The notes under the pieces: generated by a model
The model's input: only the letters and a program-made list of their open reading frames with translations
The model's database searches: none
Told to the model about the DNA's origin: nothing
Assembly: GCA_029204225.1 (NCBI GenBank)
Contig: CM055094.1
Coordinates: 20,323,489 to 20,387,488, forward strand
Origin: Diphasiastrum complanatum
Taxonomy: Eukaryota > Streptophyta > Lycopodiopsida > Lycopodiales > Lycopodiaceae
Direction of reading: 5' to 3'
Length of the DNA: 64,000 bases
Part shown: piece after piece, positions 6,166 through 60,838 of the stretch
Layout of the letters: each line of letters starts with the position of its first letter
Numbering within the stretch: position 1 is the stretch's first letter
Translations under genes and position numbers: made by a program

Positions 6166-6262
6166 GTAAGATTATGTTTTAAAATATTCATGTGTCTTGT
6201 TTCATCTAGCACATCAATGGTTGTGAATTGTTTTTTTTCTAAATCTTATTTTTGTTTTGCAG
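6166..6262 (+). other. Intron 1 of gene X
   Basis: 97 bp, from GTAAGA to a pyrimidine-rich tract ending TTTTGCAG. Removing it keeps the frame from YPF to KAALVTNE. Confidence 0.6.
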
Positions 6263-6929
6263 AGCAGCTTTAGTCACCAATGAAAATCCGAAAGACAAGG
6301 ACATGATTGGAAAGTCTTTGAGTGCAGTACTTATAGCCCAGTCAACGACGAGTCTACTTGGAAATCAACGATAGTCTCGAATCAAGTCCAAGATTGCAGA
6401 GGCCCCTATGGGCGAAGTCGGCAAGATCATTGACCGAAAATTGATACAAGGAGCATGTGATTATTCTGGTTTTAGCAGGGATGCATATGACACAATGTTT
6501 AAAATTATCAAAGAGGCATTTGGACAAGTACATATAAAACAATTTTCTATTCCTCGACCCTTTCAAATCAAATTAGAGAGGGATGTGTTAAACAGGGGTT
6601 TGCAAAACATCATTGGTATTTCTTACCATATCAATGAAATTTATAACTCAAAACATGGCACTTTGTCATATGATTCTACCAACAATATGTTTGTAGATCT
6701 GAATCATTTATAGAGATTTATTGTAAAGTTTTATTGAATCACAAACGAAATTGTTGAAAAATTGATATTAGTTCTCCAAGTTCGATGAATCAGAAGTAAT
6801 AAAGGGACAAAAGTTGGAAAATGTTAATGTTACACTTCTGAATGGAACATTAAGCAATACGATAAACTCGGAGAGTCTTAATTTCATTGTGCAGTCCGAA
6901 ATAATATTTGGTGGTTGGCAGCTTTCCAG

Positions 6930-7020
6930 GTTTAAATCTATTCTATTGAGTACTAGCAACTAATTCATTTCAAGAATTAACGGTTTTGTGTTTTAAGCTA
7001 AAATTGTTTTGTTATCATAG
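6930..7020 (+). other. Intron 2 of gene X
   Basis: 91 bp, GTTTAA to TTATCATAG. The same donor and acceptor are preserved on the minus strand at about 28,935-29,030 and 35,400-35,495. Confidence 0.6.
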
Positions 7021-7329
7021 GTCTGAGTTCAATTCTCTTCAAATAGTTCATGATTTTGTGTTTCAAACATGTTTAAAAGAAGATCATGAAATTCAATTTT
7101 GGATTTTTAGTAAAATAGAATATCCACAGATAATTAAGAATCAGATGAGCGACACACCACTCAATGTTCCTAGAATAGGTGATTTTAAGGTGGAATGGTA
7201 TTTGGTTCACACACCAAGAGCTACATGGAGTGAAAATCCAAAACTTACCGAAATGTTTTAACTGATCAAACAACATTTATATAGCTAAAACCAATAAAAC
7301 CCAAGCCGTACACTCGTCGATCCAACAGC

Positions 7330-8080: not shown

Positions 8081-8537
8081 ATGGCTCGGACGAAGCAAAC
8101 TGCTAGGCTTACCCATTTTCTTCAACCGTCCCATCCCCAGACATCTGAACCCATACGTCTGCAAAGACACGGAAGACCTCGCCTCCATGGTTGAGGGACA
8201 TCAGGGCCTTACAGAGGTACACCAAACTTGTGATCCTGAAAGCAGCCTTGTACCGGGCTGTGAGGGAGGTTACAAAGATATGACCACGCATCTGCCCTAT
8301 GCAGTGAGGTGGAATATCACTACATTGGAGGCCCTCCATATTGCATACGAGGACTTCCAGACAAAATTGTTTGAGGATTCGATGCAGTGTTCCATTCATG
8401 GCAAGAGGGTGACACTGATGCCCAAGGACATGCTTCTTGTCATGAGGTTTCGAAACACCTATGACAGCGGTATGCCACATGGTAAATCATGCAGGCTTGA
8501 GGGTTGCCATGTGGCAAGCCATGTAGGCCTACCATAA
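8081..8537 (+). pseudogene. Histone H3-like (CENH3-like) gene, copy 1, frameshifted
   Basis: The ATG at 8,081 opens MARTKQTARLTHF, matching the first eight residues of histone H3. Two single-base deletions relative to the copy at 27,419-27,877 break the frame, one near 8,185 and one near 8,273. The rest of the histone fold lies in other frames: RALQRYTKLVILKAALYRA in one, then HLPYAVRWN, KLFEDSMQCSIHGKRVTLM and PKDMLLVMRF in another. The promoter, leader and 3' minisatellite match the other copies. It cannot make a full protein. Confidence 0.8.
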
Positions 8538-9217
8538 CCTTGTATGTCAAGCCAACTGGGCCCTGTGCCACGTAGGCTTGAGTGGACCTATAGATCTATA
8601 TATATATATATAGGTGGGCTCAAAAATTGCCACTTGGCAACCCATACAGGCCTACTATAGGCTTGCATGGCAGGGCACATAGGCATGGCATATTTCTGAT
8701 GCTTCCCACGTAAGCATGTCACAGGCTACCGCATAGGCTTGCCATAGGCTTGTGTGGCAAGCAAACCAAGCTCTGCCATGTAGGCTTGAGTGGAGCTAGA
8801 GAGAGAGAGCTGGGGCTCCCAAGTTGCCATGTGGCAAGCCATGTAGGCATGTCATGAGATAAACCATAGGCTTGCATGGTAGGCCACATAGGCATGGCAT
8901 ATTTCTGATGCTTCCCACATAAGCATGTCGCAGGCTACCACATAGGCTTGCCATAGGCTTGTGTGGCAAGCCAGCCAAGCTCTGCCATGTAGGCTTGAGT
9001 GGAGCTAGAGAGAGAGAGCTGGGGCTCCCAAGTTGCCATGTGGCAAGCCATGTAGGCCTATCATAGGCTTTCGTGGTAGGTCATATAGGCATGACATAGG
9101 CTTGATGCTAGTATGTTCATGCTGGTATGTTGCAGTCTATCATATAGGCTTGACATAGGCTTGTGTGGCAAGCCAACTAAGCTATAACACGTGGGTCTGC
9201 CATGTAGGCTTGAGTGG

Positions 9218-9267: not shown

Positions 9268-9821
9268 TTAGTGAGGAGTCACACATGAACTACTTCCCTG
9301 TGGTATGGCCTAGCATCAACGTTGAAAAAACTATCTGATGGAGATAAGAAGGGTCCCAAGCAAATTTCAAATGAGAATCTTGCAGAGAAAGTATAGAAAC
9401 CACAGTTGGCGAGGGATCCCAAAGAATCGAACTTGAGTGTACAAGCCCAACAAAAGTGCACACACCAACTCCCCTCACATGGGAAGATCGTTAAATTTGA
9501 ATTTGAATAAAAATCATTGAAATTTTTGTAGATCGATGTTTAATAAAATCATACATATTATAATCTTCACACGTGTGGAATCAAGATCTACAATTAAAAC
9601 AACATTCTACACATAGAAAACCAAGATAGAGAAAATCACATGAGATGGACATAAGAGATGAATTCTCCAGAAAGAAAGAAACTTTCATGATTATTTCTCC
9701 ACTTAGGTACAACTATTTATAGCTTCCAAAATGTCATTTGGCCACTTGCCCCAAACTTGACCTCATTTGGAAACTTCTAGATACTTTATCAAAAACCTAG
9801 AAAATCTAGTCTAGATGCAAT
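9266..9821 (-). promoter_or_regulatory. Second promoter-like block of the unit (minus)
   Basis: Read on the minus strand, the block contains TATAAATA (9,714-9,721) and then a leader that runs toward the GA tract. The same block lies on the plus strand at 26,131-26,685 and 32,428-32,983. A roughly 100-bp arm at about 9,410-9,510 is an inverted repeat of 11,165-11,285. No protein is assigned to this transcript. Confidence 0.4.
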
Positions 9822-10540
9822 GTACCAAAATTAGCCAATTAGAATGGGTCCAAACTCGACCTCATCCACTAATCTACTTGCCAAAGGTAATTAAACCACT
9901 ATTTAGGCCCTTATTAACAAATATGAAACTAACTCGAAGTTGAGATTCATTTTGGCCTCCAAAATTGCCAAATGAAAAACCAAACTAGTTGACAATTTTT
10001 CACACCATGTCCTCTAGCATCTCCATTGATGAATACAATTATAAGTTTTTGAAAGCAATGTACCAAAATTTAGCCAATTAGAATGGGTCCAGACTCGACC
10101 TCATCCACTTATCTACTTGCCAGAGGTAGTTAAACCACTATTTAGGCCCTTATTAACAAATATGAAACTAACTCGAAGTTGAGATTCATTTTGGCCTCCA
10201 AAATTGCCAAATGAAAAACCAAACTAGTTGACAATTTTTCACACCATGTCCTCTAGCATCTCCATTGATGAATACAATTATAAGTTTTTGAAAGCAATGT
10301 ACCAAAATTAGCCAATTAGAATGGGTCCAAACTCGACCTCATCCACTTATCTACTTGCCAGAGGTAGTTAAACCACTATTTAGGCCCTTATTAACAAATA
10401 TGAAACTAACTCGAAGTTGAGATTCATTTTCGCCTCCAAAATTGCCAAATAAAAAACCAAACTAGTTGACAATTTTTCACACCATGTCCTCTAGACATCT
10501 CCATTGATGAATACAATTTATAAGTTTTTGAAAGCAATTC
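9822..10540 (-). repeat. 241-bp tandem repeat, 3 units
   Basis: Three units (9,822-10,059, 10,060-10,299, 10,300-10,540) of a roughly 241-bp repeat. The same satellite is present as five units at 24,926-26,130, two at 31,947-32,427 and two at 37,067-37,546. The units are nearly identical, which indicates recent expansion. Confidence 0.9.
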
Positions 10541-11100: not shown

Positions 11101-11890
11101 AGCACAGCTCGTCTAGATGATGACCAGAATGCCTCTAAGGAGAAATAGTTTTTCATTTTTTTTTAATTTTGATTTTTCCTCAAATTCAAATTTAATGATC
11201 TTCCCATGTGTGGTGAGTTGGTGTCTGCACTTTATTTGGGCTTGTACACTCAAGTTCGATTCTTTGCAATCCCCCCAAATTAATATAACCAGTAACATTA
11301 TTCTCAAAGCATGTACTATGAGCTGAAAACAACACTTGGAGAGTAAAGAGTCAGGAATATGTCAAACACTTTTACACCTAGTATTTGGCAAGATCGCTTT
11401 GCGATAAACCCCCCCCCCCCCCCCCCCCCCCCCAATTCTTAATATAACCAATAACATTATTCTCAAAGCATCTAGTATGAGCTACAAACAACACTTGGTA
11501 AGTCTTAAGACTTGGAGAGTAAAGAGTTATGCATTTGTCAAATACTTTTACACCTAGCATTTGGCAAGTTAGACACAATGATAGTAATTATAAGAATGAG
11601 TTAGACAAGCTTGTGAAGCCATCTAGAGGTGATTTGTTGTTTAGTTGCCTAGCTACATATCAAGCTACCCCAAGTTACCAAACAATTTACTGTTATTTTG
11701 AGTGACAACCATGAAGCTATCATGATTTGAAATGACATCGGTATATTAAGGTACTCCCAAGTTGACCCTTTTCCAGGAAGCCTCTCTCTTGAAACTATAG
11801 CAAAAAGCTCTTATTCAAAGGAACAATCAAGGGTCGAGTACTTACCATATGAGATGAAGACCAACAAGTAGGGCAAGGAAAGAAGATGTA
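11101..11890 (+). repeat. Repeat block D, with a 27-bp poly-C run at 11,407-11,433
   Basis: Non-coding block with an internal duplication: the segments at about 11,330-11,400 and 11,510-11,580 both contain TTTTACACCTAG followed by ATTTGGCAAG. Copies lie at 23,502-24,350, 30,629-31,380, 35,756-36,540 and 62,775-63,015. About 200 bp near 11,530-11,750 are distantly similar, in the same orientation, to block B at 15,000-15,230. Confidence 0.55.
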
Positions 11891-12448: not shown

Positions 12449-14150
12449 TCAGGAATAGTGGGCATCATGCTTATGATATTGCTCGTGCAGCCACTTGGAT
12501 CAGGTTCGAGTCAGCATTTGTCTTCGACCAGCAAATACTTTTGATCTCTGGGTGTAAGCCTTATCAGCATTGATGATAAAGCCTGAAGTGCACATCTCAT
12601 CAAAGATTTGTATGGAGTCTGCAGGAAAGTATTGTATCCGTAAATAGATCCTGGTATCCTCCATGTAAAGCGCCGGTTTGTTGGGATTGATGAAAAATTG
12701 TGGATCCTGCTCAAACCTTCTGCCCATGACAGTCATCAGAAACTGGCAGAACTTGTGTTGTAGCTTGATTGTAGGATCGTCAGAATCGGAAGTTAATTTG
12801 CAAAAGTTCTTGATGGATGTATGACATTCGTTCTGAGAAGAGAACGAGCCATCTATTATCGCAAAGTTGCAAGGATATGCTGATATGTTGTCTTCCGATC
12901 TCCATGCTAGCGCTCGTCTTCTACAAAAACTTGGGTCGAAAGAAGGATCATTCTGAATTTGCTTTGGTGATTGATCAAGCATTTCATAGACGTACGTATC
13001 TTTGAGGAATGGAGCTCTCCAACCAGTCGACGCAATTAAATCGGGCTGAGAAGAGCTCCCGATCAAATTAGATGCTGTCGTTGGAACTAACTTGTCCCCG
13101 TCTTTTCGTACTATCAAAATCGAATTTCTGGCATGCTTATGATTTTGCTCACGTAGCCAGTTGAAGCAGGTTCGAGTCAGTATTTGTCTTCGAACAGTAA
13201 ATGCTTTTGATCTCTGGGTGTACATGTAACTCTCATCAGTATTGATGATAAATCCTGAAGTGCACATCTCTTCGAAGATATGTATGGAGTCTGCAGGAAA
13301 GTATTGAATCTGTCTATAGATCCTGGTATCCTCCATGTGAAGGACCGCTTTGTTGGGATTGATGGAAAATTGTGGATCTTGCTCAAACCTTTGGCCCATG
13401 ACAGTCATCAGAAACTGGGAGAACTTGTGTTGTAGCTGGATTGTAGGATCGCGAGAATCGGAACTCAGTTCCCATAAATTATTGATTGATGTATGACATT
13501 CCTTCTGAGAAGAGAACGAGCCATCTATTATCGCGAAGTTGCAAGGATATGCTGATATGTTGTCTTCCGATCTCCATGCTCGTCTTCTACGAAATCTTGG
13601 GTCGAAAGAAGGATCATTCTGGACTTGCTTTGGTGCTTGCTCAAGCCTTTCATTCACGTGCGTATCTTTGAGGACTGGAGCTCTCCAACCGGTAGACGCC
13701 ATTAATTCTGGCTGAGAAGAGCTTTCGATCAAATTAGATGCCGTCGTTGGAACTGACTTCTCCGCGTCTTTCCGTCCTACCATAATCGAATTACTGATAT
13801 CATGTGCCTCCAAATCTCTTCCGCATATAGATTTTGTAGTTTCTGATATTTTGGCCAAACGGATTTTCTCAGCCGCCGATACTATGTTCATTTCTAGGTC
13901 CTGCTCCATCTTCCTAAGCCGATGTTGGAGATCAACAATCCTTTTCTGAGCCTCTTCAGCCTCCTGTAAATGACGAAAATAAGAGGCGAAATCAGACGGA
14001 CAGAGAACATCGATAATGCAGAGAGAGAGAGAGAGAGATATTCCATGCATTGCATTCTATTTGTACTAAGTTGGTTTCGGGTTAGACGTTGAGGCATTGT
14101 AGTCATATGTATAGAGCATCCCATCCTTAAAGGAGAACTTGTGACCATTC
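12449..14150 (-). pseudogene. Two-domain protein gene: coiled coil plus internal duplication, most complete copy
   Basis: A main minus-strand exon starts at 13,963 after an acceptor (TCATTTACAG) and runs to 12,449, with an early TGA at 12,500 where siblings have a Cys codon. It begins with a heptad-like helix (EAEEAQKRIVDLQHRLRKME). Two tandem versions of a domain of about 200 residues follow. Each contains STGWRAP, then NDPSFDP, SEDNISAYPCNFAIIDGSF, GQRFEQDPQF or GRRFEQDPQF, then EMCTSGFIIN and QRSKAF. Upstream, 14,088-14,150 looks like part of an earlier exon (HKFSFKDGMLYTYDYNAST). I do not recognise the domain. Apart from the early stop this copy is open for about 490 codons. It faces the H3-like gene. 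Confidence 0.55.
13964..14087 (-). other. Intron in two-domain gene, with GA tract
   Basis: Minus-strand GT (14,087-14,086) to AG (13,965-13,964), 124 bp, including a GA run at 14,019-14,039. In the copy at 16.8 kb the same intron has expanded to about 78 bp of GA. Confidence 0.5.
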
Positions 14151-21915: not shown

Positions 21916-22947
21916 GTGAATGAACATAGTATCGGCGGCTGAGAAAATCCGTTTGGCCAAAATATCAAAAACTACGAAATCTATATGCGGAAGAGATTTG
22001 GAGGCGGGCCAAAGGTTTGAGCAAGATCCACAATTTTCTATCAATCCCAACAAAGCGGTCCTTCACATGGAGGATACCAGGATCTATTTACGGATTCAAT
22101 ACTTTCCTGCAGACTCCATACATATCTTCAAAGAGATGTGCACTTCAGGATTTATCATCAATGCTGATGAGGGTTACATGTACACCCAGAGATCAAAAGA
22201 ATTTACTGGTCGAAGACAAATACTGACTCGAAACTGCTTCAACTGGCTACGTGAGCAAAATCATAAGCATGCCAGTAAGTCGACTCTGATAGGACGAAAA
22301 GACGGGGACAAGTCAGTTCCAACGACGACATCTAATTTGATCGGGAGCTCTTCTCAGCTAGATTTAATTGCGTCGACCGGTTGGAGAGCTCCATTCCTCA
22401 AAGATACGTACGTCTATGAAATGCTTGATCAATCACCAACGCAAATTCAGAATGATCCTTCTTTCGACCCAAGTTTTCGTAGAAGACGAGCGCTAGCATG
22501 GAGATCGGAAGACAACATATCAGCATAGCCTTACAACTTTGCGATAATAGATGGCTCGTTCTCTTCTCATAAGGAATGTCATACATCCATCAAGAATTTT
22601 TGCAAATTAACTTCTGATTCTGACGATCCTACAATCAAGCTACAACACAAGTTCTGCCAGTTTCTGATGACTGTCATGGGCCGAAGGTTTGAGCAGGATC
22701 CACAATTTTTCATCAATCCCAACAAACCGGCGCTTCACATGGAGGATACTAGGATCTATTAACAGATACAATACTTTCCTGCAAACTCCATACAAATCTT
22801 CGAAGAGATGTGCAGTTCATCATCAATGCTGATAAGGCTTACACCCAGAGATCAAAAGCATTTGCTGGTCGAAGACAAATGCTGACTCGAACCTGCTCCA
22901 AGTGGCTGCACGAGCAATATCATAAGCATGATGCCCACTATTCCTGA
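21916..22947 (+). pseudogene. Two-domain gene copy, tandem unit 1
   Basis: Starts inside the coiled-coil exon (MNIVSAAEKIRLAKIS). A deletion joins GRDLEA to GQRFEQDPQF, removing most of repeat domain 1. Later stops include TAG at 22,526-22,528 and TAA near 22,759, and a few bases are lost near 22,815. It ends at TGA 22,945. Downstream sequence matches 12.1-12.45 kb in reverse. Confidence 0.6.
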
Positions 22948-24925: not shown

Positions 24926-26130
24926 ATTGCTTTCAAAAACTTATAAATTGTATTCATCAATGGAGATGTCTAGAGGACATGGTGTGAAAAATTGTCAACT
25001 AGTTTGGTTTTTTATTTGGCAATTTTGGAGGCCAAAATGAATCTCAACTTCGAGTTAGTTTCATATTTGTTAATAAGGGCCTAAATAGTGGTTTAACTAC
25101 CTCTGGCAAGTAGATAAGTGGATGAGGTCAAGTTTGGACCTATTCTAATTGGCTAAATTTTGTTTCATTGCTTTCAAAAACTTATAAATTGTTTTCATCA
25201 ATGGAGATGTCTAGAGGACATGGTGTGAAAAATTGTCAACTAGTTTGGTTTTTCATTTGGCAATTTTGGAGGCCAAAATGAATCTCAACTTCGAGTTAGT
25301 TTCATATTTGTTAATAAGGGCCTAAATAGTGGTTTAACTACCTCTGGCAAGTAGATAAGTGGATGAGGTCGAGTTTGGACCCATTCTAATTGGCTAAATT
25401 TTGGTTCATTGCTTTCAAAAACTTATAAATTGTATTCATCAATGGAGATGTCTAGAGGACATGGTGTGAAAAATTGTCAACTAGTTTGGTTTTTCATTTG
25501 GCAATTTTGGAGGCCAAAATGAATCTCAACTTCAAGTTAGTTTCATATTTGTTAATAAGGGCCTAAATAGTGGTTTAACTACCTCTGGCAAGTAGATAAG
25601 TGGATGAGGTCGAGTTTGGACCCATTCTAATTGGCTAAATTTTGGTTCATTGCTTTCAAAAACTTATAAATTGTATTCATCAATGGAGATGTCTAGAGGA
25701 CATGGTGTGAAAAATTGTCAACTAGTTTGGTTTTTCATTTGGCAATTTTGGAGGCCAAAATGAATCTCAACTTCAAGTTAGTTTCATATTTGTTAATAAG
25801 GGCCTAAATAGTGGTTTAACTACCTCTGGCAAGTAGATAAGTGGATGAGGTCAAGTTTGGACCCATTCTAATTGGCTAAATTTTGGTTCATTGCTTTCAA
25901 AAACCTATAAATTGTTTTCATCAATGGAGATGTCTAGAGGACATGGTGTGAAAAATTGTCAACTAGTTTGGTTTTTCATTTGGCAATTTTGGAGGCCGAA
26001 ATGAATCTCAACTTAGCGCTAGTTTCATATTTGTTAATAAGGGCCTAAATAGTGGTTTAACTACGTCTGGCAAGTAGATCAGTGGATGAGGTCGAGTTTG
26101 GACCCATTCTAATTGGCTGCTTTTGGTACA
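24926..26130 (+). repeat. 241-bp tandem repeat, 5 units
   Basis: Unit starts at 24,926, 25,167, 25,408, 25,649 and 25,890 give an exact 241-bp period. Each unit runs from ATTGCTTTCAAAAAC to GGCTAAATTTTGGTTC. This is the longest array of this satellite in the window. Confidence 0.95.
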
Positions 26131-26681
26131 TTGCATCTAGACAGAATTTTCTAGGTTTTTGATAAAGTATCTAGAAGTTTCCAAATTAGGTGAAGTTTGG
26201 GGCAAGTGGCCAAATGACATTTTGGAAGCTATAAATAGTTGTACCTAATTGGAGAAATAATCATAAAAGTTTCTTTCTTTGTGGAGAATTCATCTCTTAT
26301 GTCCATCTCATGTGATTTTCTCTATCTTGGTTTTCTATGTGTAGAATGTTGATTTTCTTGTAGATCTTGATTCCACACGTGTGAAGATTATAATATATAT
26401 GATTTTGTTAAACATCGATCTACAAAAATTTCAACGATTTTTCTTCAAATTCAAATTTAACGATCTTCCCATGTGTGGTGAGTTGGTGTATGCGCTTTTG
26501 TTAGGCTTGTACACTCAAGTTCGATTCTTTGGGATCCCTCGCCAACTGTGGTTTCAATACTTTCTCTGCAAGATTCTCATTTGAAATTTGCTTGGGACCC
26601 TTCTTATCTTCATCAGATATTTTTTTCAACGTTGATGCTAGGCCATACCACAGGGAAGTAGTTCATGTGTGACTCCTCACT

Positions 26682-27418: not shown

Positions 27419-27877
27419 TTATGGTAGGCCCACATGGCTTGCCACATGGCAACCCTCAAGCCTGCATAATTTGCCATCTAGCATACCGCTGTCATAGGTC
27501 TTTCGAAACCTCATGACAAGAAGCATGTCCTTGGGCATCAGTGTCACCCTCTTGCCATGAATGGAACACAGCATCGAATCCTCAAACAATTTTGTCTGGA
27601 AGTCCTCGTATGCAATATGGAGGGCCTCCAATGCAGCGATATTCCACCTCACTGCATAGGGCAGATGGGTGGTCATATCTTGTGTAACCTCCCTCACAGC
27701 CCGGTACAAGGCTGCTTTCAGGATCACAAGTTTGGTGTACCTCTGCAAGGCTCTGATGTCCCTCAACCATGGATGGTGAGGTCTTCCACGTCTTTGCGGA
27801 CATATGGGTTCAGATGTCTGGGGACGAGACAGTTGAACAAAATGGGTAAGCCTAGCGGTTTGCTTCGTCCACGCCAT
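27419..27877 (-). CDS. Histone H3-like protein with CENH3 features, intact copy (152 aa)
   Basis: Intronless 152-residue frame, start ATG at 27,877. Residues 1-9 (MAWTKQTAR) match canonical H3 except R-to-W at residue 3; the other copies have R. The tail is short (about 34 residues), and Leu stands where H3 has Lys9. The histone fold follows: alphaN/alpha1 (WLRDIRALQRYTKL, LYRAVREVTQD), a loop 1 about four residues longer than in H3, alpha2 opening with RW (VRWNIAALEALHIAYEDF), then LFEDSMLCSIHGKRVTLMPKD. The longer loop 1, RW for RF and SMLC for TNLC are typical of plant CENH3, whereas MPKD and the first residues are H3-like. The C-terminal 25 residues derive from the adjacent minisatellite. 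Expected role if expressed is nucleosome assembly, possibly centromeric. A promoter array lies upstream. It could also be a decaying capture that happens to be open. Confidence 0.7.
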   Translation of the reverse strand: MAWTKQTARLTHFVQLSRPQTSEPICPQRRGRPHHPWLRDIRALQRYTKLVILKAALYRAVREVTQDMTTHLPYAVRWNIAALEALHIAYEDFQTKLFEDSMLCSIHGKRVTLMPKDMLLVMRFRKTYDSGMLDGKLCRLEGCHVASHVGLP

Positions 27878-28202
27878 TGAGGCCGGATATTTATACCACG
27901 TGAGGACAGAGATACAGCAGAAGAGAGCTAAATTATCTCGCATAATGGCGACACTGAGAACTCTAAAGGTGATATCGCTACTACGCGAGAGAGTGGCAGG
28001 GGCAGGCAGGGAGAGGCAGGGGTTTGCATGATGGCGATACTGGGAAAGTCAGGCTGATATCGCTACGACGTGAGAGGGTGTACGGAATAGGCCTAGGGAC
28101 AAGGTCGCTCGCATGATGGCGATATCATGAATGCAGGTCGTATGGAAGCAATCAAACATGACAGCAAATTACGCGAAAACCTATACAATCCCCGGGAATG
28201 GA
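27878..28202 (-). promoter_or_regulatory. 5' leader of the intact H3-like gene
   Basis: Leader of about 300 bp with the same opposed GATATCGC motifs as copy 1. An in-frame upstream ATG would add 22 residues, but the later ATG is preferred because it begins the H3-like tail. Confidence 0.5.
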
Positions 28203-28210
28203 CTTATATA
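28203..28210 (-). promoter_or_regulatory. TATA box of the intact H3-like gene
   Basis: TATATAAG on the minus strand, 326 bp from the ATG. Confidence 0.6.
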
Positions 28211-28693: not shown

Positions 28694-29117
28694 TTAAAAT
28701 TTTTCGCTAAGTTTTGGATTATCACTCCCTGTAGCTCTTGGAGTGTGAACCAAATACCATTTCGTCTTAAAATGACCTATTCTAGGAACACTGAGTGGTG
28801 TGTCGCTCATATGATTCTTAATTATCTTTGGATATTCTGTTCTACTAAAAATCCAAAATAAAATTTCATGATCTTCTTTAAAACCTGTTTGAAACACAAA
28901 ATCATGAACTATTTTAAGAGAATTGAACTGATACCTATAATAACAAAACAATATTAGCTTAAAACACAAAACCATTAATTCTTGAAATGAATTAGTTGCT
29001 AGTACTCAATAGAATAGATTTCAACCTGGGAAGCTGCCAAACACCAAATATTATTTTCGGACTGCACACTGAAATTAACACTCTTTGAGTTAATCGTATT
29101 GCTTAATGTTCCATTCA
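28694..29117 (-). pseudogene. Gene X 3' part, tandem unit 1
   Basis: The last exon (FKEDHEILFWIFSRTEYPKI, ending LSEKF at 28,694) follows a conserved intron and the end of the previous exon (NGTLSNTINSKSVNF, SENNIWCLAASQ). The 5' part of the gene is missing: the exon is cut at about 29,117 and joined to the two-domain gene. The remaining frames are open, cleaner than in the 7-kb copy. Function unknown. Confidence 0.55.
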
Positions 29118-30074
29118 TAAGTCATGGGCCAAAGGTTTGAGCAAGATCCACAATTTTCCATCAATCCCAACAAAGCGGTCCTTCACATGGAGGATACCAG
29201 GATCTATTTACGGATTCAATACTTTCTTGTAGACTCCATACATATCTTCGAAGAGATGTGCACTTCAGGATTTATCATCAATGCTGATGAGGGTTACATG
29301 TACACCCAAAGATCAAAAGCATTTACTGGTCGATGACAAATACTGACTCGAAACTGCTTCAATCGGCTACATGAGCAAAATCATAAGCATGCCAGTAATT
29401 CGACTCGGATAGGACGAAAAGACGGGGACAAGTCAGTTCCAACGACGTCATCTAATTCGATCAGGAGCTTTTCTCAGCCAGATTTAATTGCGTCGACCGG
29501 TTGGAGAGCTCCATTCCTCAAAGATACGTACGTCTATGAAATGCTTGATCAATCACCAAAGCAAATTCAGAATGATCCTTCTTTCGACCCAAGTTTTCGT
29601 AGAAGACGAGCGCTAGCATGGAGATCGGAAGACAACATATCAGCATATCCTTGCAACTTTGCGATAATAGATGGCTCGTTCTCTTCTCATAAGGAATGTC
29701 ATACATCCATCAAGAATTTTTGCAAATTAACTTCCGATTCTGACAATCTTACAATCAAGCTACAACACAAGTTTTGCCAGTTTCTGATGACTGTCATGGG
29801 CCGAAGGTTTGAGCAGGATCCACAATTTTTCATCAATCCCAACAAACCGGCGCTTCACATGGAGGATACCAGGATCTATTTACGGATAAAATACTTTCCT
29901 GTAGACTCCATACAAATCTTTGAAGAGATGTGCACTTCAGGCTTTATCATCAATGCTGATAAGGCTTACACCCAGAGATCAAAAGCATTTGCTGGTCGAA
30001 GACAAATGCTGACTCGAACCTGCTCCAAGTGGCTGCGCGAGCAATATCATAAGCATGATGCCCACCATTCCTGA
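29118..30074 (+). pseudogene. Two-domain gene copy, tandem unit 2
   Basis: Starts at MGQRFEQDPQF in repeat domain 1 and continues through repeat domain 2 to HDAHHS and TGA at 30,072. A CGA-to-TGA change at 29,334 is the main break. From 29,541 the frame is open for 177 codons. The left junction with gene X is identical to that at 35,581. Confidence 0.6.
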
Positions 30075-31946: not shown

Positions 31947-32427
31947 ATTGCTTTCAAAAACTTATAAATTGTATTCATCAATGGAGATGTCTAGAGGACA
32001 TGGTGTGAAAAATTGTCAACTAGTTTGGTTTTTTATTTGGCAATTTTGGAGGCCAAAATGAATCTCAACTTCGAGTTAGTTTCATATTTGTTAATAAGGG
32101 CCTAAATAGTGGTTTAACTACCTCTGGCAAGTAGATAAGTGGATGAGGTCAAGTTTGGACCCATTCTAATTGGCTAAATTTTGGTTCATTGCTTTCAAAA
32201 ACCTATAAATTGTTTTCATCAATGGAGATGTCTAGAGGACATGGTGTGAAAAATTGTCAACTAGTTTGGTTTTTCATTTGGCAATTTTGGAGGCCGAAAT
32301 GAATCTCAACTTCGAGTTAGTTTCATATTTGTTAATAAGGGCCTAAATAGTGGTTTAACTACCTCTGGCAAGTAGATCAGTGGATGAGGTCGAGTTTGGA
32401 CCCATTCTAATTGGCTACTTTTGGTAC
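31947..32427 (+). repeat. 241-bp tandem repeat, 2 units
   Basis: Units start at 31,947 and 32,188. The left and right edges match the first and last units of the five-unit array. Confidence 0.95.
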
Positions 32428-33881
<1,454 letters not shown>

Positions 33882-34339
33882 TTATGGTAGGCCCACATGG
33901 CTTGCCACATGGCAACCCTTAAGCCTGCATAATTTGCCATCTGGCATACCGCTGTCATAGGTCTTTCGAAACCTCATGACAAGAAGCATGTCCTTGGGCA
34001 TCAGTGTCACCCTCTTGCCATGAATGGAACACAGCATCGAATCCTCAAACAATTTTGTCTGGAAGTCCTCGTATGCAATATGGAGGGCCTCCAATGCAGC
34101 GATATTCCACCTCACTGCATAGGGCAGATGGGTGGTCAATCTTGTGTAACCTCCCTCACAGCCCGGTACAAGGCTGCTATCAGGATCACAAGTTTGGTGT
34201 ACCTCTGCAAGGCTCTGATGTCCCTCAACCATGGATGGTGAGGTCTTCCGCGTCTTTGCGGACGTATGGGTTCAGATGTCTGGGAACAGGACAGTTGAAC
34301 AAAATGGGTAAGCCTAGCGGTTTGCTTCGTCCGAGCCAT
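33882..34339 (-). pseudogene. Histone H3-like gene, copy 3, one frameshift
   Basis: The ATG at 34,339 begins MARTKQTARLTHFVQL and the frame runs through VREVTQD. It then breaks at about 34,137, where one base is missing relative to the intact copy (GGTCAATCTTG for GGTCATATCTTG). The rest of the histone fold (HLPYAVRWN, LFEDSMLCSIHGKRVTLM) is open in the next frame. Arg at residue 3 is the ancestral state. Promoter parts are complete. Confidence 0.8.
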
Positions 34340-35157: not shown

Positions 35158-35581
35158 TTAAAATTTTTCGCTAAGTTTTGGATTATCACTCCCTGTAGCT
35201 CTTGGAGTGTGAACCAAATACCATTTCGTCTTAAAATGACCTATTCTAGGAACACTGAGTGGTGTGTCGCTCATATGATTCTTAATTATCTTTGGATATT
35301 CTGTTCTACTAAAAATCCAAAATAGAATTTCATGATCTTCTTTAAAACCTGTTTGAAACACAAAATCATGAACTATTTTAAGAGAATTGAACTGATACCT
35401 ATAATAACAAAACAATATTAGCTTAAAACACAAAACCATTAATTCTTGAAATGAATTAGTTGCTAGTACTCAATAGAATAGATTTCAACCTGGGAAGCTG
35501 CCAAACACCAAATATTATTTTCGGACTGCACACTGAAATTAACACTCTTTGAGTTAATCGTATTGCTTAATGTTCCATTCA
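35158..35581 (-). pseudogene. Gene X 3' part, tandem unit 2
   Basis: Near-identical to 28,694-29,117 at an offset of 6,464 bp, with the same intron and the same truncation. Confidence 0.55.
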
Positions 35582-35755
35582 TAAGTCATGGGCCAAAGGT
35601 TTGAGCAAGATCCACAATTTTCCATCAATCCCAACAAAGCGGTCCTTCACATGGAGGATACCAGGATCTATTTACGGATTCAATACTTTCCTGTAGACTC
35701 CATACATATCTTCGAAGAGATGTGCACTTCAGGATTTATCATCAATGCTGATGAG
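35582..35755 (+). pseudogene. Two-domain gene fragment, tandem unit 3
   Basis: Contains MGQRFEQDPQF to GFIINADE only. It is then deleted straight into block D (about 1.34 kb lost relative to unit 2, including repeat domain 2 and the 70-codon ORF). Confidence 0.65.
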
Positions 35756-37066: not shown

Positions 37067-37546
37067 ATGGCTTTCACAAACTTATAAATTGTATTCATCA
37101 ATGGAGATGTCTAGAGGACATGGTGTGAAAAATTGTCAACTAGTTTGGTTTTTTATTTGGCAATTTTAGGGACCAAAATGATCTCAACTTCGAGTTAGTT
37201 ACATATTTGTTAATAAGGGCCTAAATAGTGGTTTAACTACCTCTGGCAAGTAGATAAGTGGATGAGGTCGAGTTTGGACCCATTCTAATTGGCTAATTTT
37301 GGTACATTGCTTTCAAAAAACTTATAAATTGTATTCATCAATGGAGATGTCTAGAGGAGATGGTGTGAAAAATTGTCAACTAGTTTGGTTTTTCATTTGG
37401 CAATTTTGGAGGCCAAAATGAATCTCAACTTCGAGTTAGTTTCATATTTGTTAATAAGGGCCTAAATGGTGGTTTGACTACCTCTGGCAAGTAGATCAGT
37501 GGATGAGGTCGAGTTTGGACCCATTCTAATTGGCTAATTTATGTAC
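37067..37546 (+). repeat. 241-bp tandem repeat, 2 units
   Basis: Units start at 37,067 and 37,306. Confidence 0.95.
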
Positions 37547-37910
37547 ATGGCATCTAGACTAGATTTTCTAGGTGTCTGATAAAGTATCTAGTAGTTTCCA
37601 AATTAGGTCAAGTTTGGGGCAAGTGGCCAAATGACATTTTGGAAGCTATAAATAGTTGTACCTAAGTGGAGAAATAATCATCAAAGTTTCTTTCTTTGTG
37701 GAGAATTCATCTCTTATGTCCATCTCATGTGATATTTTTCTTCAAATTCAAATTTAACGATCTTCCCATGTGTGGTGAGTTGGTGTATGCGCTTTTGTTG
37801 GGCTTGTACACTCAAGTTCGATTCTTTGGGATCCCTCGCAAACTGTGGTTTGTATACTTTCTCCGCAAGATTCTCATTTGAAATTTGCTTGGGACCCTTC
37901 TTATCTCCAT
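37547..37910 (+). promoter_or_regulatory. Second promoter-like block, tandem unit 3 (TATA at 37,647-37,654), shortened
   Basis: Lacks about 100 bp after GTCCATCTCATGTGAT compared with unit 2. The LTR element at 37,911 then interrupts it, and its right remainder resumes at 43,462. Confidence 0.4.
37906..37910. repeat. Target-site duplication, left (TCCAT)
   Basis: Matches 43,457-43,461. The uninterrupted site reads TTATCTCCATCAGATATTT at about 32,900. Confidence 0.9.
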
Positions 37911-38558
37911 TGTGAAAATTGTCAACATTTCCTTGTCTAGTTTTAGGCCAAAATTGCTAAAAATGGCACATAGTTTAGGATCTGACTTTTCACACGTGTG
38001 AAACAGGTCTAGATATTTTTAGTAAGTGTATTTTTTCAGTATGAAAAAGTGTCAAACTTCAAGACCTTCGAAATGAGTCCATTTTCATGTATTTTGGACA
38101 TATATGCCAATTTTACCTATATAGGGCATATTTTAGGTAAGGAGGGTCTAGAGAGAGGAGAGAGAGTCATCTCTCTCAGCTATATATAGCAGGTAGGCCG
38201 TGGAGAAACAGGTTGGAGCAGATCCATTGTATTCATTTGCTTAATGAGAGATTTTTCTATTGGGTTCTCCTTCCATTGTTGGCATTGTGTAGTGATTGAG
38301 TTCAAGCTTTGTGTGTATGATCTTAGGTGCTTTCCAAAAGTGGTAGGCTGATGTATTATGGACTGTATAATGCTATTTTGGGCCGCACTTGATGTTTATG
38401 GAAGTTTCCATTTGTGATAAATGCTTTTTGATCAAGTTCTTTGCATTCTAGGTAGCATAGAATGTGTTGCCAATTCCTAGCTTATGTAGTTTGGAGTGCA
38501 AGCATTCAAGCCAATGATCTTGGAGTTTAGATCCACTTAGGATCTGTATTTTTTCACA
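37911..38558 (+). repeat. 5' LTR
   Basis: 648 bp, TGTGAAAATT to TTTTTTCACA, with TATATATA at 38,181-38,188 as the likely promoter. The region upstream of TATA has GA-rich and CTCTCT stretches that can pair. Confidence 0.95.
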
Positions 38559-38570
38559 TGGTATCAGAGC
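38559..38570 (+). other. Primer-binding site (initiator methionine tRNA type)
   Basis: TGGTATCAGAGC lies directly after the 5' LTR. This is the standard primer site of plant copia elements. Confidence 0.93.
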
Positions 38571-39730: not shown

Positions 39731-42700
39731 ATGGCTTCCAATGGTGGGATCATGCTAGAGTCTAGTGAAAGGTTGAGTTCATCAAACTACTCTACTTGGA
39801 AAGTGAGGATGGAGTCCTTACTTGAGTTGAATGAACTCATGGACATAGTTGCAGAAATTGAAGAGAGACCTCTCACACTTCAAGAGCAACAAAGGTTTGA
39901 TAAGAAGGCCAAAAGGGCTCTTCATATCATTAAAATGAATGTTACAAATGAACTTCTCAAGGAGGCATGGAATGCCTTAAAGAAGCTCTTTGAATCAAAG
40001 TCCACATCTAGGGTATTGACCCTAAGGAGACAAATATTTTCTAGTAGGCAAAGAGAGGGTGAAAGTGCTCATGCATTTATCTTGAGAGTTAAGTCCCTAA
40101 GTGATGATTTAGCATGCATTGATGAGAACATAAAAGATGGTGAAATAGTCCAAGTTATGTTGAATGGTTTGCTAAATGAACATGCTAACCTTGTGCAAAG
40201 TTTTGCCATTCAAAGAGTCTTGCCAAGTGTGGTTGACTTGCAAGAAATCTTATTGGCTGAAGAACATAGGTTGCAATCAAAGCTTGATGGTGCATCCTTG
40301 CAAGGTGGAGGTGAAGAGGCTTTCTTCACAAAAGGCAAATTCAAGGGCAAAGGTAAAGGCAAAGGGAAATGGTCCAAAGGTGGTAACTTTGATCATGATG
40401 ATCACTCTTCCTCTTCCTCTTCTACTAAGAACAATAAGTCAAAGTTCAAGTGCTTTTATTGTGGGATAGAAGGACATTTTGCAAATGAATGCCATAAGAA
40501 ACAAAATTCTAGATCTAGGTTGAGATCTAATGTACTTCTTGGAGATGATAATTGTTGTGCTAACTTGGCAAGCTTTGGTGAATCTATGGTCAATTTTTTG
40601 GATCCATTGGATCTTGAAGATGCACTAGTGTTACCTACTAGTCATATGGAGTCATGTGGAGCTAAATTAGCATCATGTTTGTACTCTTCTACTCATGGAC
40701 TTCCAAGGCTTGGTGGTTCTTCAATGGTGCTAGATGGCAAGTGCAAAAATGGAAAAGGTAAGGAAGGAGCTAACTTCATCAATGGAGTTGATGAAGATTC
40801 TTCTTTGGAAATGATTGTTGCTAATGACTTGTTTGTTCATATGGAAAAAGATGGAGATGCTAAGTGTCATTCTTTGCAAGAAGATGGTTGTTCTTCTAAT
40901 TCTTTTCATATTGATGTATGTAATCATGTGGGAAAAGATGATGGTGCTTTGAGCATGCTTGAAGGAAATGGTTCTTTTACATCTTTTTGTGATAAAGTCA
41001 TTTGTGCAACAAGTGATGTCACATTTCTTCATAAAAAGAGTAGATCAAAGGTTTCTATCATGAGACTTGGTGAGGGAGATCACAAGTCAAAAGGAAGAGA
41101 AGTATGTGAAGTGTTCAAAGTAGGATGTACTTTGAATGATGTTTTTATGAACGATAGTGAGGAAGAATCATTATCATATGACTCATTACCTAAATCATTG
41201 AGTAGAAGTTCATGTTTGAAAAGAGAGAGTACTTCAATCACTCTTATGTTGAAGGTACTAAGGATTATTTTCTTGGCTTCTAATATTCAAGAGTCTTCTA
41301 CTTCTTATGGTGCAACTATCAAGAGGGAGGTTTCTAACTTTTGTGGTGCTAGCATTAAGAGGGAGTCTTGTGAAGGAAAGGGCAATGGAAGAGTGGTTCT
41401 TGGGAAGATCCAAAGCATGGATCTAACATCTCTTCATCAACTCAAAGCATTCTATGATTGTGGTGGATTGTTCATTCATGGTCAAGATGGCAAAAGGTTG
41501 GTTGAAGAAGACTACATGGAGCAACTCAAGTGGCAACTTCTTCAAGGCAAGGGAGATATCATTGGTGAGCTTATTGAGGTTTGTTATGAACTCAAGAGGG
41601 CTGTTTTGATTAGGTTTGATACTCATCTTCACCTACTCTACTTCATGTTAAATGGAAATGTTGGAATCTATCTTTTGGTTTATGATGGTGGCATTGTTTT
41701 CACTAACTATAGTGAAGGGTCAAATTTGAGCATTGATGAGATCTTGTGGGATCTTAATCATGTGTTTGAGAGGGAGTATCTTCAGAGTTTCAGATCTGAA
41801 GATGTTCACATATGCAAGATCTTTGATGTCTTATTGGAAGATCAAGAGGTTGATCTTGGATTGCTTCATCAACACCAAGAGACAAGTGGCAATTCGAAGC
41901 TAGTGAAAAGCATCAAAGAAGAGACAAATGGTCAAGGCATTTTGGATCTGTTTTTACAGGTTCTTGAAGGTTCAAGTAAGGTCTTTGGAGCTGCAAGGAA
42001 GTGTCTTCTTACTCTACCTCACTTGCCTAATCTCATGTATGAACATTGTTATGTCAATGTGTTGAAATTGTCAAATTTCAATAAAACTAGTTCCATAGTT
42101 TTGCATCCTTTGGATCTTGGAGATGGAATAGTTATCATTGCTGGTTTGTATGATCAAGTACATGAATTCATTCAGATCTTGAAAGGTATTGAAGTGGTCA
42201 ATATGTTTTCTTTTGAACAAAGTTCAAGATCTAGTATTCTAGTGTTGGCAAATTGGCAACTTGTTGACATTGTAGGATCAAGCGTTGTGTGCAAATCTTG
42301 TGGAGGTACTTCAAGTATTTCAAGTTCAGGTTTTGGTCATTCAAATGGAGTAGGGAACACATCTTTTTGGCATTCATTCACTCAAAGGCTTTCATGGATT
42401 GAAGATCTACAAAGGCAAGGTGGTGATGGAAGTTCATTCATGGAGATACATGTTGCATTCACTATATGTATAGTGAAACGTGGAGGAGGCATGCAAACAC
42501 TTGTTGATCACTTTCATTTACAACTTGTTTGCTGCTATTTTACAGAGAAACCAGAGATGGATACATGGAGGAATTCATTAATTGAGATTCTATGTTCTTT
42601 TACATGTACCATTTTTATGATTCTATGTAAAATTGATGTAAGAAATAGTGAAGCATCCTATATGGACACTATTATCTATATCAATTATGTTGTGTCCTAT

Positions 42701-42796
42701 TTTGTACATATTAGGATCCTTGAGAAGAGATCTATTCTGATGATGGAGATCATTCTTAAGTTGGAACAAAGTAGTGTTGTAAAACTAGCAAGTTAA
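39731..42796 (+). CDS. Gag-like protein with a long unknown C-terminal region (1,021 aa)
   Basis: A single open frame starting ATGGCTTCC. Residues about 17-185 are a copia-type Gag domain (SSNYSTWKVRMESLL, then SVVDLQEILLAEEH). A Lys/Gly-rich linker follows near 200-215 and a perfect CX2CX4HX4C zinc knuckle at C241, C244, H249 and C254 (CFYCGIEGHFANEC). A Ser-, Gly- and Cys-rich stretch follows, then a folded-looking region at about 565-720 (LTSLHQLKAFYDCGGLFIHG, then LLYFMLNGNVGIYLLVYDGG) and hydrophobic stretches near the end. No DSGA protease, integrase or RT is seen. Gag should coat RNA and form particles. The role of the extra 770 residues is unknown; they may be captured host sequence. 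The intact length is notable. Confidence 0.9.
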   Translation: MASNGGIMLESSERLSSSNYSTWKVRMESLLELNELMDIVAEIEERPLTLQEQQRFDKKAKRALHIIKMNVTNELLKEAWNALKKLFESKSTSRVLTLRRQIFSSRQREGESAHAFILRVKSLSDDLACIDENIKDGEIVQVMLNGLLNEHANLVQSFAIQRVLPSVVDLQEILLAEEHRLQSKLDGASLQGGGEEAFFTKGKFKGKGKGKGKWSKGGNFDHDDHSSSSSSTKNNKSKFKCFYCGIEGHFANECHKKQNSRSRLRSNVLLGDDNCCANLASFGESMVNFLDPLDLEDALVLPTSHMESCGAKLASCLYSSTHGLPRLGGSSMVLDGKCKNGKGKEGANFINGVDEDSSLEMIVANDLFVHMEKDGDAKCHSLQEDGCSSNSFHIDVCNHVGKDDGALSMLEGNGSFTSFCDKVICATSDVTFLHKKSRSKVSIMRLGEGDHKSKGREVCEVFKVGCTLNDVFMNDSEEESLSYDSLPKSLSRSSCLKRESTSITLMLKVLRIIFLASNIQESSTSYGATIKREVSNFCGASIKRESCEGKGNGRVVLGKIQSMDLTSLHQLKAFYDCGGLFIHGQDGKRLVEEDYMEQLKWQLLQGKGDIIGELIEVCYELKRAVLIRFDTHLHLLYFMLNGNVGIYLLVYDGGIVFTNYSEGSNLSIDEILWDLNHVFEREYLQSFRSEDVHICKIFDVLLEDQEVDLGLLHQHQETSGNSKLVKSIKEETNGQGILDLFLQVLEGSSKVFGAARKCLLTLPHLPNLMYEHCYVNVLKLSNFNKTSSIVLHPLDLGDGIVIIAGLYDQVHEFIQILKGIEVVNMFSFEQSSRSSILVLANWQLVDIVGSSVVCKSCGGTSSISSSGFGHSNGVGNTSFWHSFTQRLSWIEDLQRQGGDGSSFMEIHVAFTICIVKRGGGMQTLVDHFHLQLVCCYFTEKPEMDTWRNSLIEILCSFTCTIFMILCKIDVRNSEASYMDTIIYINYVVSYFVHIRILEKRSILMMEIILKLEQSSVVKLAS

Positions 42797-42809: not shown

Positions 42810-43456
42810 TGTGAAAATTGTCAACATTTCCTTGTCTAGTTTTAGGCCAAAATTGCTAAAAATGGCACATAGTTTAGGATCTGACTTTTCACACGTGTGA
42901 AACAGGTCTAGATATTTTTAGTAAGTGTATTTTTTCAGTATGAAGAAGTGTCAAACTTCAAGACCTTCGAAATGAGTCCATTTTCATGTATTTTGGACAT
43001 ATATGCCAATTTTACCTATATAGGGCATATTTTAGGTAAGGAGGGTCTAGAGAGAGGAGAGAGAGTCATCTCTCTCAGCTATATATAGCAGGTAGGCCGT
43101 GGAGAAACAGGTTGGAGCAGATCCATTGTATTCATTTGCTTAATGAGAGATTTTTCTATTGGGTTCTCCTTCCATTGTTGGCATTGTGTAGTGATTGAGT
43201 TCAAGCTTTGTGTGTATGATCTTAGGTGCTTTCCAAAAGTGGTAGGCTGATGTATTATGGACTGTATAATGCTATTTTGGGCCGCACTTGATGTTTATGG
43301 AAGTTTCCATTTGTGATAAATGCTTTTTGATCAAGTTCTTTGCATTCTAGGTAGCATAGAATGTGTTGCCAATTCCTAGCTTATGTAGTTTGGAGTGCAA
43401 GCATTCAAGCCAATGATCTTGGAGTTTAGATCCACTTAGGATCTGTATTTTTCACA
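42810..43456 (+). repeat. 3' LTR
   Basis: 647 bp, differing from the 5' LTR at two positions. Its TATATATA is at 43,080-43,087. Confidence 0.95.
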
Positions 43457-43461
43457 TCCAT
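43457..43461. repeat. Target-site duplication, right (TCCAT)
   Basis: Same 5 bp as 37,906-37,910. The host sequence continues TAGATATTTTTTTCAACG. Confidence 0.9.
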
Positions 43462-43611: not shown

Positions 43612-44395
43612 CCACTCAAGCCTACATGGCAGACCCACGTGGTATAGCTTAGTTGGCTTGCCACAAAAGCCTATGTCAAGCCTATATGGGAGACTGCAAC
43701 ATACCACCATGAACATACTAGCATCAAGCCTATGTCATGCCTATATGACCTACCATGCAAGCCTATGATAGGCCTACATGGCTTGCCACATGGCAAGTCC
43801 CAAGCCTGTGTGGTTTATCTCATGACATGCCTACATGGCTTGCCACATGGCAACTTGGGAGCCCCAGATCTCTCTCTCTAGCTCCACTCAAGCCTACATG
43901 GCAGAGCTTGGTTGGCTTGCCACACAAGCCTATGGCAAGCCTATGTGGTATCCTACGACATGCTTATGTGGGAAGCATCAGAAATATGCCATGTCTATGT
44001 GGCCTGCCACGCAAGCCTATGGTTTATCTCATGACATGCCTACATGGCTTGCCACATGGCAACTTGGGAGCCCCAGCTCTCTCTCTCTAGCTCCACTCAA
44101 GCCTACATGGCAGAGCTTGGTTTACTTGCCACACAAGCCTATGGCAAGCCTATGTGGTAGCCTACGACATGCTTACGTGGGAAGGATCAGAAGTATGCCA
44201 TGCCTATGTGGCCTGCCATGCAAGCCTATGGTAGGCCTGTGTGGTTTGCCAAGTGGCAACTTTTGCGCCCACCTATATATATATATATATAGATCTCTAG
44301 GTCCACTCAAGCCTACGTGGCACAGGGCCCAGTTGGCTTGACATACAAGGTTATGGTAGGCCCACATGGCTTGCCACATGGCAACCCTCAAGCCT
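43609..44395 (-). repeat. GGCTTG-rich minisatellite, tandem unit 3
   Basis: Copy of 33,148-33,881, slightly longer, with a TA run at about 44,275-44,291. Confidence 0.75.
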
Positions 44396-44641
44396 TCATG
44401 ATTTGCCATGTGGCATACCGCTGTCATAGGTCCTCATGACAAGAAGCATGTCCTTGGGCATTAGTGTCACCCTCTTGCCATGAATGGAACACAGCATCGA
44501 ATCCTCAAACAATTTTGTCTGGAAGTCCTCGTATGCAATATGGAGGGCCTCCAATGCAGCGATATTCCACCTCATTGCATAGGGCAGATGCGTGGTCATA
44601 TCTTGTGTAACCTCTCTCATATCTTGTCTAACCTCCCTCAC
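44396..44641 (-). pseudogene. Histone H3-like gene, copy 4, truncated
   Basis: Only the fold from alpha1 onward remains (VREVTQD duplicated as MREVRQDMREVTQD, then HLPYAMRWN and LFEDSMLCSIHGKRVTLM). Nine bases after LLVMR are deleted and an early stop follows GMPHGKS. The N-terminal tail, leader and TATA are gone. The break at about 44,641 joins directly to the ACGTG array. Confidence 0.75.
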
Positions 44642-44945: not shown

Positions 44946-45162
44946 ATGTTGTTTGATCAGTTAAAACATTTCGCTAAGTTTTGGATTTTCACTCCCTATA
45001 GCTCTTGGTGTGTGAACCAAATATCATTCTGTCTTAAAATGACCTATTCTAGGAACATTGAGTGGTGTGTCGCTCATATGATTCTTAATTATCTCTGGAT
45101 ATTCTGTTTTACTAAAAATCCAAAATAGAATTTCATGATCTTCTTTAAAACCTGTTTGAAAC
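44946..45162 (-). pseudogene. Gene X last exon, deletion allele
   Basis: The last exon up to GTTTCAAAC is retained, then joined at about 45,162 to the region around the gene X start (TTGTTTCCTGTCTTTCG). About 1.39 kb of gene interior is lost. The identical junction lies at about 60,631. Confidence 0.65.
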
Positions 45163-45760
45163 TTGTTTCCTGTCTTTCGTCCTTTGGTGAGCTGGTAAGG
45201 TGGATCCTTTCAAATTTTTTCTCGACAGTGGAGCATATTCTGTGGAAAGATCAATATGGAGATGATATTTAGACATCTTAATAATCGATAGATTAATCTA
45301 GTAGAAAACCAACTTGTTATATATCTTGTAAGCTATTAAAACTCGTCTTAATTATAAAAAAAAATTAATTGGAAAAGTTTGAAATGACCTTGGCGCTCTT
45401 TTTGATCGATCACACTCCATGTTTCTTGCTTTATATGCAAAATCAAAGCTTTGCAATTATGAGCAAAATAAGCAAAATATTTTTTCAATAGATGTGTGTT
45501 GAAATTGCAAATTTTTGAATTGCAAAAGTTTGAAATAACCTTGTCGCTCTATTTAATCCAACCCACTCCGTATTTTCTGAATTTCAAAAATTTACATTCA
45601 CGTTGGCGCTCATTGTGATCCAAAATATTCAAAGTTTCTTGCCACGATTTTCAAATCGATAAGACTGTTTTTCTTTGATGTGAACGCTTTGAATAGATGG
45701 AAGAAAACTTTGATGTGCAATACGATTTGCATTTACATGAGAAGTTACGTTAGTTAATGG
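45163..45760 (-). repeat. Gene X first-exon remnant and upstream spacer (minus)
   Basis: Reverse of 5,083-5,669. It includes the MSKYHLHIDLPT coding start in a changed context and the spacer motifs. Confidence 0.5.
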
Positions 45761-60631: not shown

Positions 60632-60838
60632 GTTTCAAACAGGTTTTAAAGAAGATCATGAAATTCTATTTTGGATTTTTAGTAAAACAAAACATCCAGA
60701 GATAATTAAGAATGATATGAGCGACACACCACTCAATGTTCCTAGAATAGGTGATTTTAAGGTGGAATGGCATTTGGTTCACACACGAAGAGCTACCAGG
60801 AGTGAAAATCCAAAACTTAGCGAAATGTTTTAACTGAT
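60632..60838 (+). pseudogene. Gene X last exon, deletion allele
   Basis: Joined to the spacer at the same point as at 45,162. Encodes FKEDHEILFWIFSKTKHPE and GDFKVEWHLVHTRRATRSEN. Confidence 0.65.

Follow-up and report, generated by a model that had tools for sequence, protein, structure and literature searches.

The H3-like frame and its copies in the window

Within the 64,000-nucleotide stretch of Diphasiastrum complanatum DNA analysed here (hereafter, the window), an open frame of the histone H3 family lies on the minus strand. It is one of four H3-like copies, all of which have a broken transposase-like piece 0.4-0.9 kb upstream, and the window also holds a 241-bp tandem repeat belonging to an amplified unit. 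The features are as follows.

8081-8560, plus strand: H3-like copy 1, with two one-base gaps
27422-27877, minus strand: H3-like copy 2, an open frame of 152 codons with an H3-type N-terminal tip and a complete histone fold (family D, see below)
33861-34339, minus strand: H3-like copy 3, with one one-base gap
44331-44641, minus strand: H3-like copy 4, with its 5' half absent
6258-7207, plus strand: broken transposase-like piece upstream of copy 1, which stops just short of the second conserved D motif
28748-29121, minus strand: transposase-like pieces upstream of copy 2
35212-35585, minus strand: transposase-like pieces upstream of copy 3
45015-45167, minus strand: transposase-like piece upstream of copy 4
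60627-60779, plus strand: transposase-like piece of a fifth unit, with no H3 among the matches listed there
24926-26134, and also 9817-10538, 31947-32432 and 37070-37548: 241-bp tandem repeat of the amplified unit

The open copy is contained in a minus-strand ORF (27419-27943), in which the H3-type start MAWTKQTARL is located at 27877; a plus-strand reading of the frame is ruled out by stops. An initial annotation, made from the sequence, had assigned this gene to the H3 family, and the assignment was borne out by the Pfam Histone model (E=2.6e-20) as well as by a search of PDB, in which H3.3 was the top match (E=1.2e-19). The fold has the loop 1 arginine and the FED/FKD, KRVT-type and KD motifs of histone H3. 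The residues RW, SMLC, VTLM and MPKD to which the annotation had drawn attention are all present, and the longer loop 1 that it described is confirmed, with four residues more than in host H3. Its count of four copies, one open and three broken, is also correct, two being broken by one-base gaps and copy 4 lacking the 5' half. The ARTKQTAR start, however, applies to copies 1 and 3, which begin with MARTKQTAR, and not to the open copy 2, which reads AWTKQTAR; this W occurs only in copy 2 among the three tip-bearing window copies, and is found again in L043, a dispersed copy described below. A single-sequence structure model of the window protein had a mean pLDDT of 37.6 and was set aside.

Past approximately residue 130, the window frame exits the gene and runs into repeat sequence, while in its full-length relatives another 230 or so residues follow the fold. 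A codon comparison of the other three window copies with the open copy gave 12 silent and 23 replacement differences, a ratio near neutral decay, which indicates that the copies in the window are fossil or close to it. Judged from these differences, the H3 gene of the window looks to be decaying within amplified arrays.

These arrays were traced with both the protein and the repeat. Among the best 150 of 6741 candidates matching the window protein, 84 are located at C3:18.5-21.8 and 29.9-30.2 Mb and 9 at C14:49.4-49.9 Mb, with 54 of these 93 array matches being free of stops; the remaining 57 lie elsewhere, on many chromosomes. For the 241-bp repeat, all of the 42 matches listed (40 of 2480 candidates scored) fall within the same places of C3 and C14. 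The coincidence of the two sets of matches indicates that a truncated family D element has been amplified together with the repeat over megabases on two chromosomes. Two pairs of copies with equal scores (C3:21274466/21382229 and C3:21276327/21384090) are each 107,763 bp apart, suggesting that the C3 array grew partly by large segmental duplication.

Several other features were observed in the window. An internally duplicated open frame of 516 codons (12500-14050, minus strand) is repeated in the amplified unit, at 21920-22528 and 29541-30074; its sole Pfam match is weak and below threshold. On the plus strand, an open frame of 1021 codons (39731-42796) encodes a copia-type gag (PF14223, E=4.7e-14) with a zinc knuckle; it is flanked by direct repeats (37911-38559 and 42810-43457) that are 99.7% alike and are likely the LTRs of a young element. 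Another plus-strand frame (62350-62805) contains a FRYIDDI motif and appears reverse transcriptase-like by eye, with no Pfam match at E 0.01, and the nearby segment 62774-63013 is 82% alike to 11424-11680.

H3-bearing transposon families in the genome

The Pfam histone model PF00125 was run on this one genome (1,744,706,496 bases in 5176 contigs). The best 150 of 6325 candidates comprised 13 canonical H3 matches (163.7-165 bits), 134 diverged matches (95-110 bits) and 3 partial ones. Twenty diverged loci of 10 kb each were sorted into three families, A (14 loci), B (5 loci) and C (1 locus), and the copies of the window were designated family D. The family A protein has a long tail with the H3 fold at its C-terminal end, and that of family B has a short tail and a C-terminal extension. 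In L042 and L043, two dispersed copies of family D, the frame stays open from the H3-type start over 357 codons, which encode the H3 fold and about 230 further residues. Comparison of the C-terminal parts by blastp, run without compositional adjustment, showed those of B, C and D to be homologous to one another, at E values of about 1e-7 to 2e-16; a shared domain is thus fused to H3 in these three families, and is missing from family A and the window frame. In the fold, the four families are 41-60% identical to each other, and the transposon H3 sequences are 46-55% identical to host H3. The initial annotation had also considered that the window copies might be a fossil capture. Its picture of a repeat-borne gene, mostly fossil in the window, stands; the idea of a CENH3 picked up by a local repeat was dropped, because the Pfam histone search showed families across the whole genome.

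Elements of families A and B possess inverted ends of about 37 bp (CATTAG...CTAATG) and are 6.4-9.0 kb in length. Seven aligned family A loci share a sharp start, CATTAGGGCCCTTTTTGGACTC or a close variant, and an inverted copy of it closes five of the seven. The family A elements with both ends are L010 (8809 bp), L025 (8955 bp), L021 (8697 bp), L014 (7946 bp) and L011 (6404 bp); the far end was not found in an added 2 kb at L020, nor within 10 kb at L027. Family B has the terminus CATTAGAGGAGTTCTC, and its element L026 measures 8681 bp. Terminal inverted repeats thus stand at the sharp ends of seven elements (L010, L011, L014, L021, L025, L026 and a short one in L018), and none of the seven has an exact flanking repeat of more than 2 bases that could represent a target-site duplication. 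No such ends were observed for families C and D, where the sequence analysed did not extend to the limits of the elements. The short element (L018, 1283-2373) is a 1090-bp derivative with A-type ends situated inside a family B element, from which about 0.8 kb is gone at the derivative's site with no target duplication, a possible clue to the mechanism of insertion.

Families A and B also share genes. Significant matches between them were obtained for a transposase-like gene (two parts and a third piece), for g2 and its neighbour (provisionally labelled sumo or ubi, labels without evidence), and for g4c. Families C and B have the transposase-like gene, g4 and g4b in common; the g4 and g4b genes of family A lie at the matching place but have no significant match to B. 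By position, the order of modules is the same in A and B (g2, its neighbour, H3, the g4 block, transposase), with the H3 and the g4 block each inverted between the two. Conserved in the transposase-like protein of both families are one D, a second D with CxxC behind it, and an E motif that reads SQGMEKSH or TQGMEKSH. This protein showed no meaningful match in Pfam (best E 0.076, in the N-terminal part), no match in PDB, and a best E of 0.074 in PHROGs. Kinship with RAG1, suggested by its motifs, was rejected when hhalign gave no signal, in a weak test that compared two of the sequences with a RAG1 core.

The H3 and transposase-like genes are physically linked across the genome. An H3-like match lies within 6 kb, mostly at 2.8-3.9 kb, in 56 of the 113 listed transposase matches (the best 113 of 13774 candidates), a count whose PF00125 input was only the 22 H3 matches already near a transposase match and which also took those matches of the CENH3-query searches that the PF00125 list lacked, canonical and intron-bearing H3 excluded. 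The two genes are on opposite strands in 56 of 57 pairs. Taken from the side of the histone, a listed transposase match lies within 12 kb of 22 of the 134 diverged H3 matches, where 0.2 would be expected. Both counts exclude the 13 canonical and 3 partial PF00125 matches and are lower bounds since most candidates were unscored; because the transposase query came from family A, the linkage speaks for that family above all.

We then compared silent and replacement changes among copies that had been chosen by Pfam or protein score, a choice that biases the apparent dN in the fold downwards. Between two subfamilies of family B (6 pairs), the fold has a dS of 0.49-0.65 and a dN of 0.03-0.06, with a silent excess (P=3e-9 for L022-L026 and P=1e-8 for L018-L024). 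The family D fold shows a dN of 0.05 and a dS of 0.24 between L042 and L043 (silent excess, P=9e-4), and a silent excess is also present between L043 and the window (P=5e-3). The C-terminal domains, which were outside the search scoring, have a silent excess as well (P=5e-3 in B and P=1e-3 in D, one pair each). Among the young copies of family A, pN/pS is 1.04 in the tip, indicating no constraint there, and only 0.38 in the fold (14 copies); the value for the transposase part is 0.42 over 7 copies. These comparisons suggest that the H3 fold of family B is under purifying selection, with signs of the same in D. The initial annotation had named a lack of purifying selection in every genomic copy as a point against its reading; signs of such selection were found in the folds of B and D, but not in the window copies, which look neutral, nor between the window and L042 (P=0.41).

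Overall, the gene in the window arose by truncation of an H3-variant gene that belongs to the regular equipment of a DNA transposon lineage (families A-D), and we are highly confident that it is the transposon's own H3. At least four diverged families of H3-bearing transposons exist in the genome, and their sequences make it seem that the H3 has long been kept as a working part.

N-terminal tips and possible roles of the transposon H3

The tip of host H3 reads ARTKQTARKS. In family A, an exact ARTKQTARDP is present in 9 of the 14 loci, while each of the other five departs from it at one or two positions; the ninth residue is D in 12 loci and G in two (L013 and L016). An in-frame ATG is located upstream of this tip in all 14 loci (MSEE; MSEK in L012), and therefore the tip may not be the true N-terminal end in family A. 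The stretch from tip to fold is open in only one of the 14. Three of the five family B loci (L019, L024 and L026) have the tip, DRRKQTRRDF, in an open frame, and the single family C locus reads ARTESTARAT. In family D, the tips are ARTKQTARLT (window copies 1 and 3), AWTKQTARLT (copy 2), ARAKQTAKLT (L042) and AWTKQTASLT (L043). Position 9 is thus not K in any copy read (D or G in A, D in B, A in C and L in D), and the AARKS context of K27 was not seen by eye in the tails read, while an ARTKQTAR-like tip is retained in all four families among the copies read. A different arrangement was observed at L010 and L014, where the fold is joined in frame to another N-terminal part (MVRERSTRAKKKESSQG...) that replaces the usual family A tail and is perhaps the same DNA in another reading frame.

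Hosts silence transposons via marks on histone H3. The survival of an H3-like tip in four families, though K9 is gone in all of them, points to a possible anti-silencing function. The element would make its own H3, which would enter nucleosomes together with host H4; chromatin containing this H3, with neither K9 nor the K27 context, could not take the methyl marks of transposon silencing, and the element would thereby keep itself expressible. We put this mechanism forward tentatively, and the loss of K9 could be mere divergence of the tail. The combined explanation, namely a transposon's own H3 that is decaying in the window and has an anti-silencing role, is the one to which we incline by a modest degree. 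The broader proposition, in which an old DNA transposon lineage that leaves no target duplication owns a K9-less H3, domain-fused in three families, and rewrites silencing-relevant chromatin with it, is plausible rather than probable. If true, a self-supplied H3 without K9 would strike directly at the substrate on which host silencing acts and would provide a natural experiment on the purpose of H3 K9. New H3 variants, some of them centromere-like, could then also come from transposons and not solely from the duplication of host genes.

The alternative that survives best assigns the histone to the transposition machinery, where it would pack the element DNA or join the transpososome, with the C-terminal domain of B-D contacting the transposase and the loss of K9 being incidental. 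The linkage to the transposase-like gene (56 of 113 listed matches), the conserved fusion of the C-terminal domain in B-D and the long, proline-rich tail of family A are all consistent with such a role. Family A, however, is without this domain, the reading is drawn from sequence comparison, and we know of no histone-fold subunit of a transpososome; we consider this role rather unlikely.

A second alternative takes up the centromeric-H3 features that the initial annotation had reported: a CENH3-like protein would mark or invade centromeres, the element would be a selfish centromere factor, and the arrays at C3:18.5-21.8, C3:29.9-30.2 and C14:49.4-49.9 Mb would be centromere-like. CENH3-like residues occur at A65 in five of five representatives and at P63 and T75 in four of five (H3 numbering assigned here), and loop 1 is longer than in host H3 by four residues in D and one in B. 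The corresponding extension in CENH3 is two residues in Arabidopsis and maize and one in rice. However, families A and C have no extra residue in loop 1, the tip is H3-like, and 16 sites diagnostic for angiosperm CENH3 versus host H3 are split in each family (in L042, 6 are CENH3-like, 5 H3-like and 5 neither). In an unrooted tree of 18 fold sequences, with angiosperm CENH3 sequences and without host CENH3, host H3 (99/95) and CENH3 (86/84) each hold together, and the branch of transposon H3 is parted from the rest with support of 97/93. Having three groups and no root, this tree places the transposon H3s neither with CENH3 nor outside host H3 plus CENH3. Host CENH3 was not found with maize and Arabidopsis queries, by which a gene in short exons could be missed; these queries returned canonical H3, intron-bearing H3 genes (L039-L041 among them) and transposon copies, and a further candidate, L049, proved to be a piece of an H3 pseudogene. 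In addition, dispersed D-type copies lie on many chromosomes, whereas arrays were seen on two only. A centromeric role for the element is doubtful in our estimation.

Passive capture, in which a host H3 was caught and multiplied as a passenger and all copies are fossils, suits the window copies and has a precedent in fungal hAT elements (PMC6710886). It is hard to reconcile with four families that are only 41-60% identical to one another in the fold, with the silent excess in the folds and C-terminal domains of B and D, and with the shared gene set, and we regard it as quite improbable. Least probable of all is that the elements descend from a DNA virus that carried an H3 gene: although viruses with single H3 genes exist (PMC9145170), a scan of IMG/VR, which reaches close relatives only, gave no match for one transposase-like protein of family A, the best PHROGs E for the transposase-like protein was 0.074, the window H3 was unmatched in phage records, and no replication or capsid gene was recognised in the scanned ORFs.

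Comparison with known systems

Plant CENH3 is usually encoded by one or two host genes. The transposon H3 resembles it in the H3 fold, the longer loop 1 (B and D), the LIP.AP motif and the diverged tail, and differs from it in its mixed diagnostic residues, H3-like N-terminal tip and many transposon copies. A search of the literature in one open library found no report of plant transposons with their own H3.

The nearest fungal case is that of the Dothideomycetes, whose hAT elements carry a transduplicated histone H3 (PMC6710886), with the first case reported in PMC3538342. Intact H3-bearing hAT elements of P. fijiensis average about 9.5 kb, and the H3 in the fungal elements is the host gene's own coding sequence, taken up by capture; RIP has inactivated every copy except the original in P. 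fijiensis and its relatives, and the recent H3 copies of P. tritici-repentis may be active (PMC6710886). The likeness to our elements is that a DNA transposon multiplies an H3 sequence to many copies (PMC6710886). In contrast, the H3 studied here is 46-55% identical to host H3 in the fold, occurs in four families, is fused to a domain in three of them and is constrained, and Pfam finds no hAT domain in the transposase-like protein. Singlet viral H3 genes encode one core histone that likely enters host nucleosomes, and such viruses are similar to our elements in being mobile genomes with one core histone (PMC9145170). The elements described here, however, sit integrated in the genome as transposons, have inverted ends and carry a transposase-like gene, and no viral genes were seen in the scanned ORFs.

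As far as these sources show, neither the fungal nor the viral precedent concerns a lineage of transposons whose own H3 is under constraint and fused to another domain. If our reading is true, the elements would form the first lineage of transposons to encode a histone as a functional component of their own. With regard to function, VANC, an anti-silencing protein encoded by the VANDAL transposons of Arabidopsis, offers a parallel, since the function proposed here is likewise to lift the silencing that the host imposes on the element; VANC is a non-histone protein, whereas the means proposed here would be an H3 without K9.
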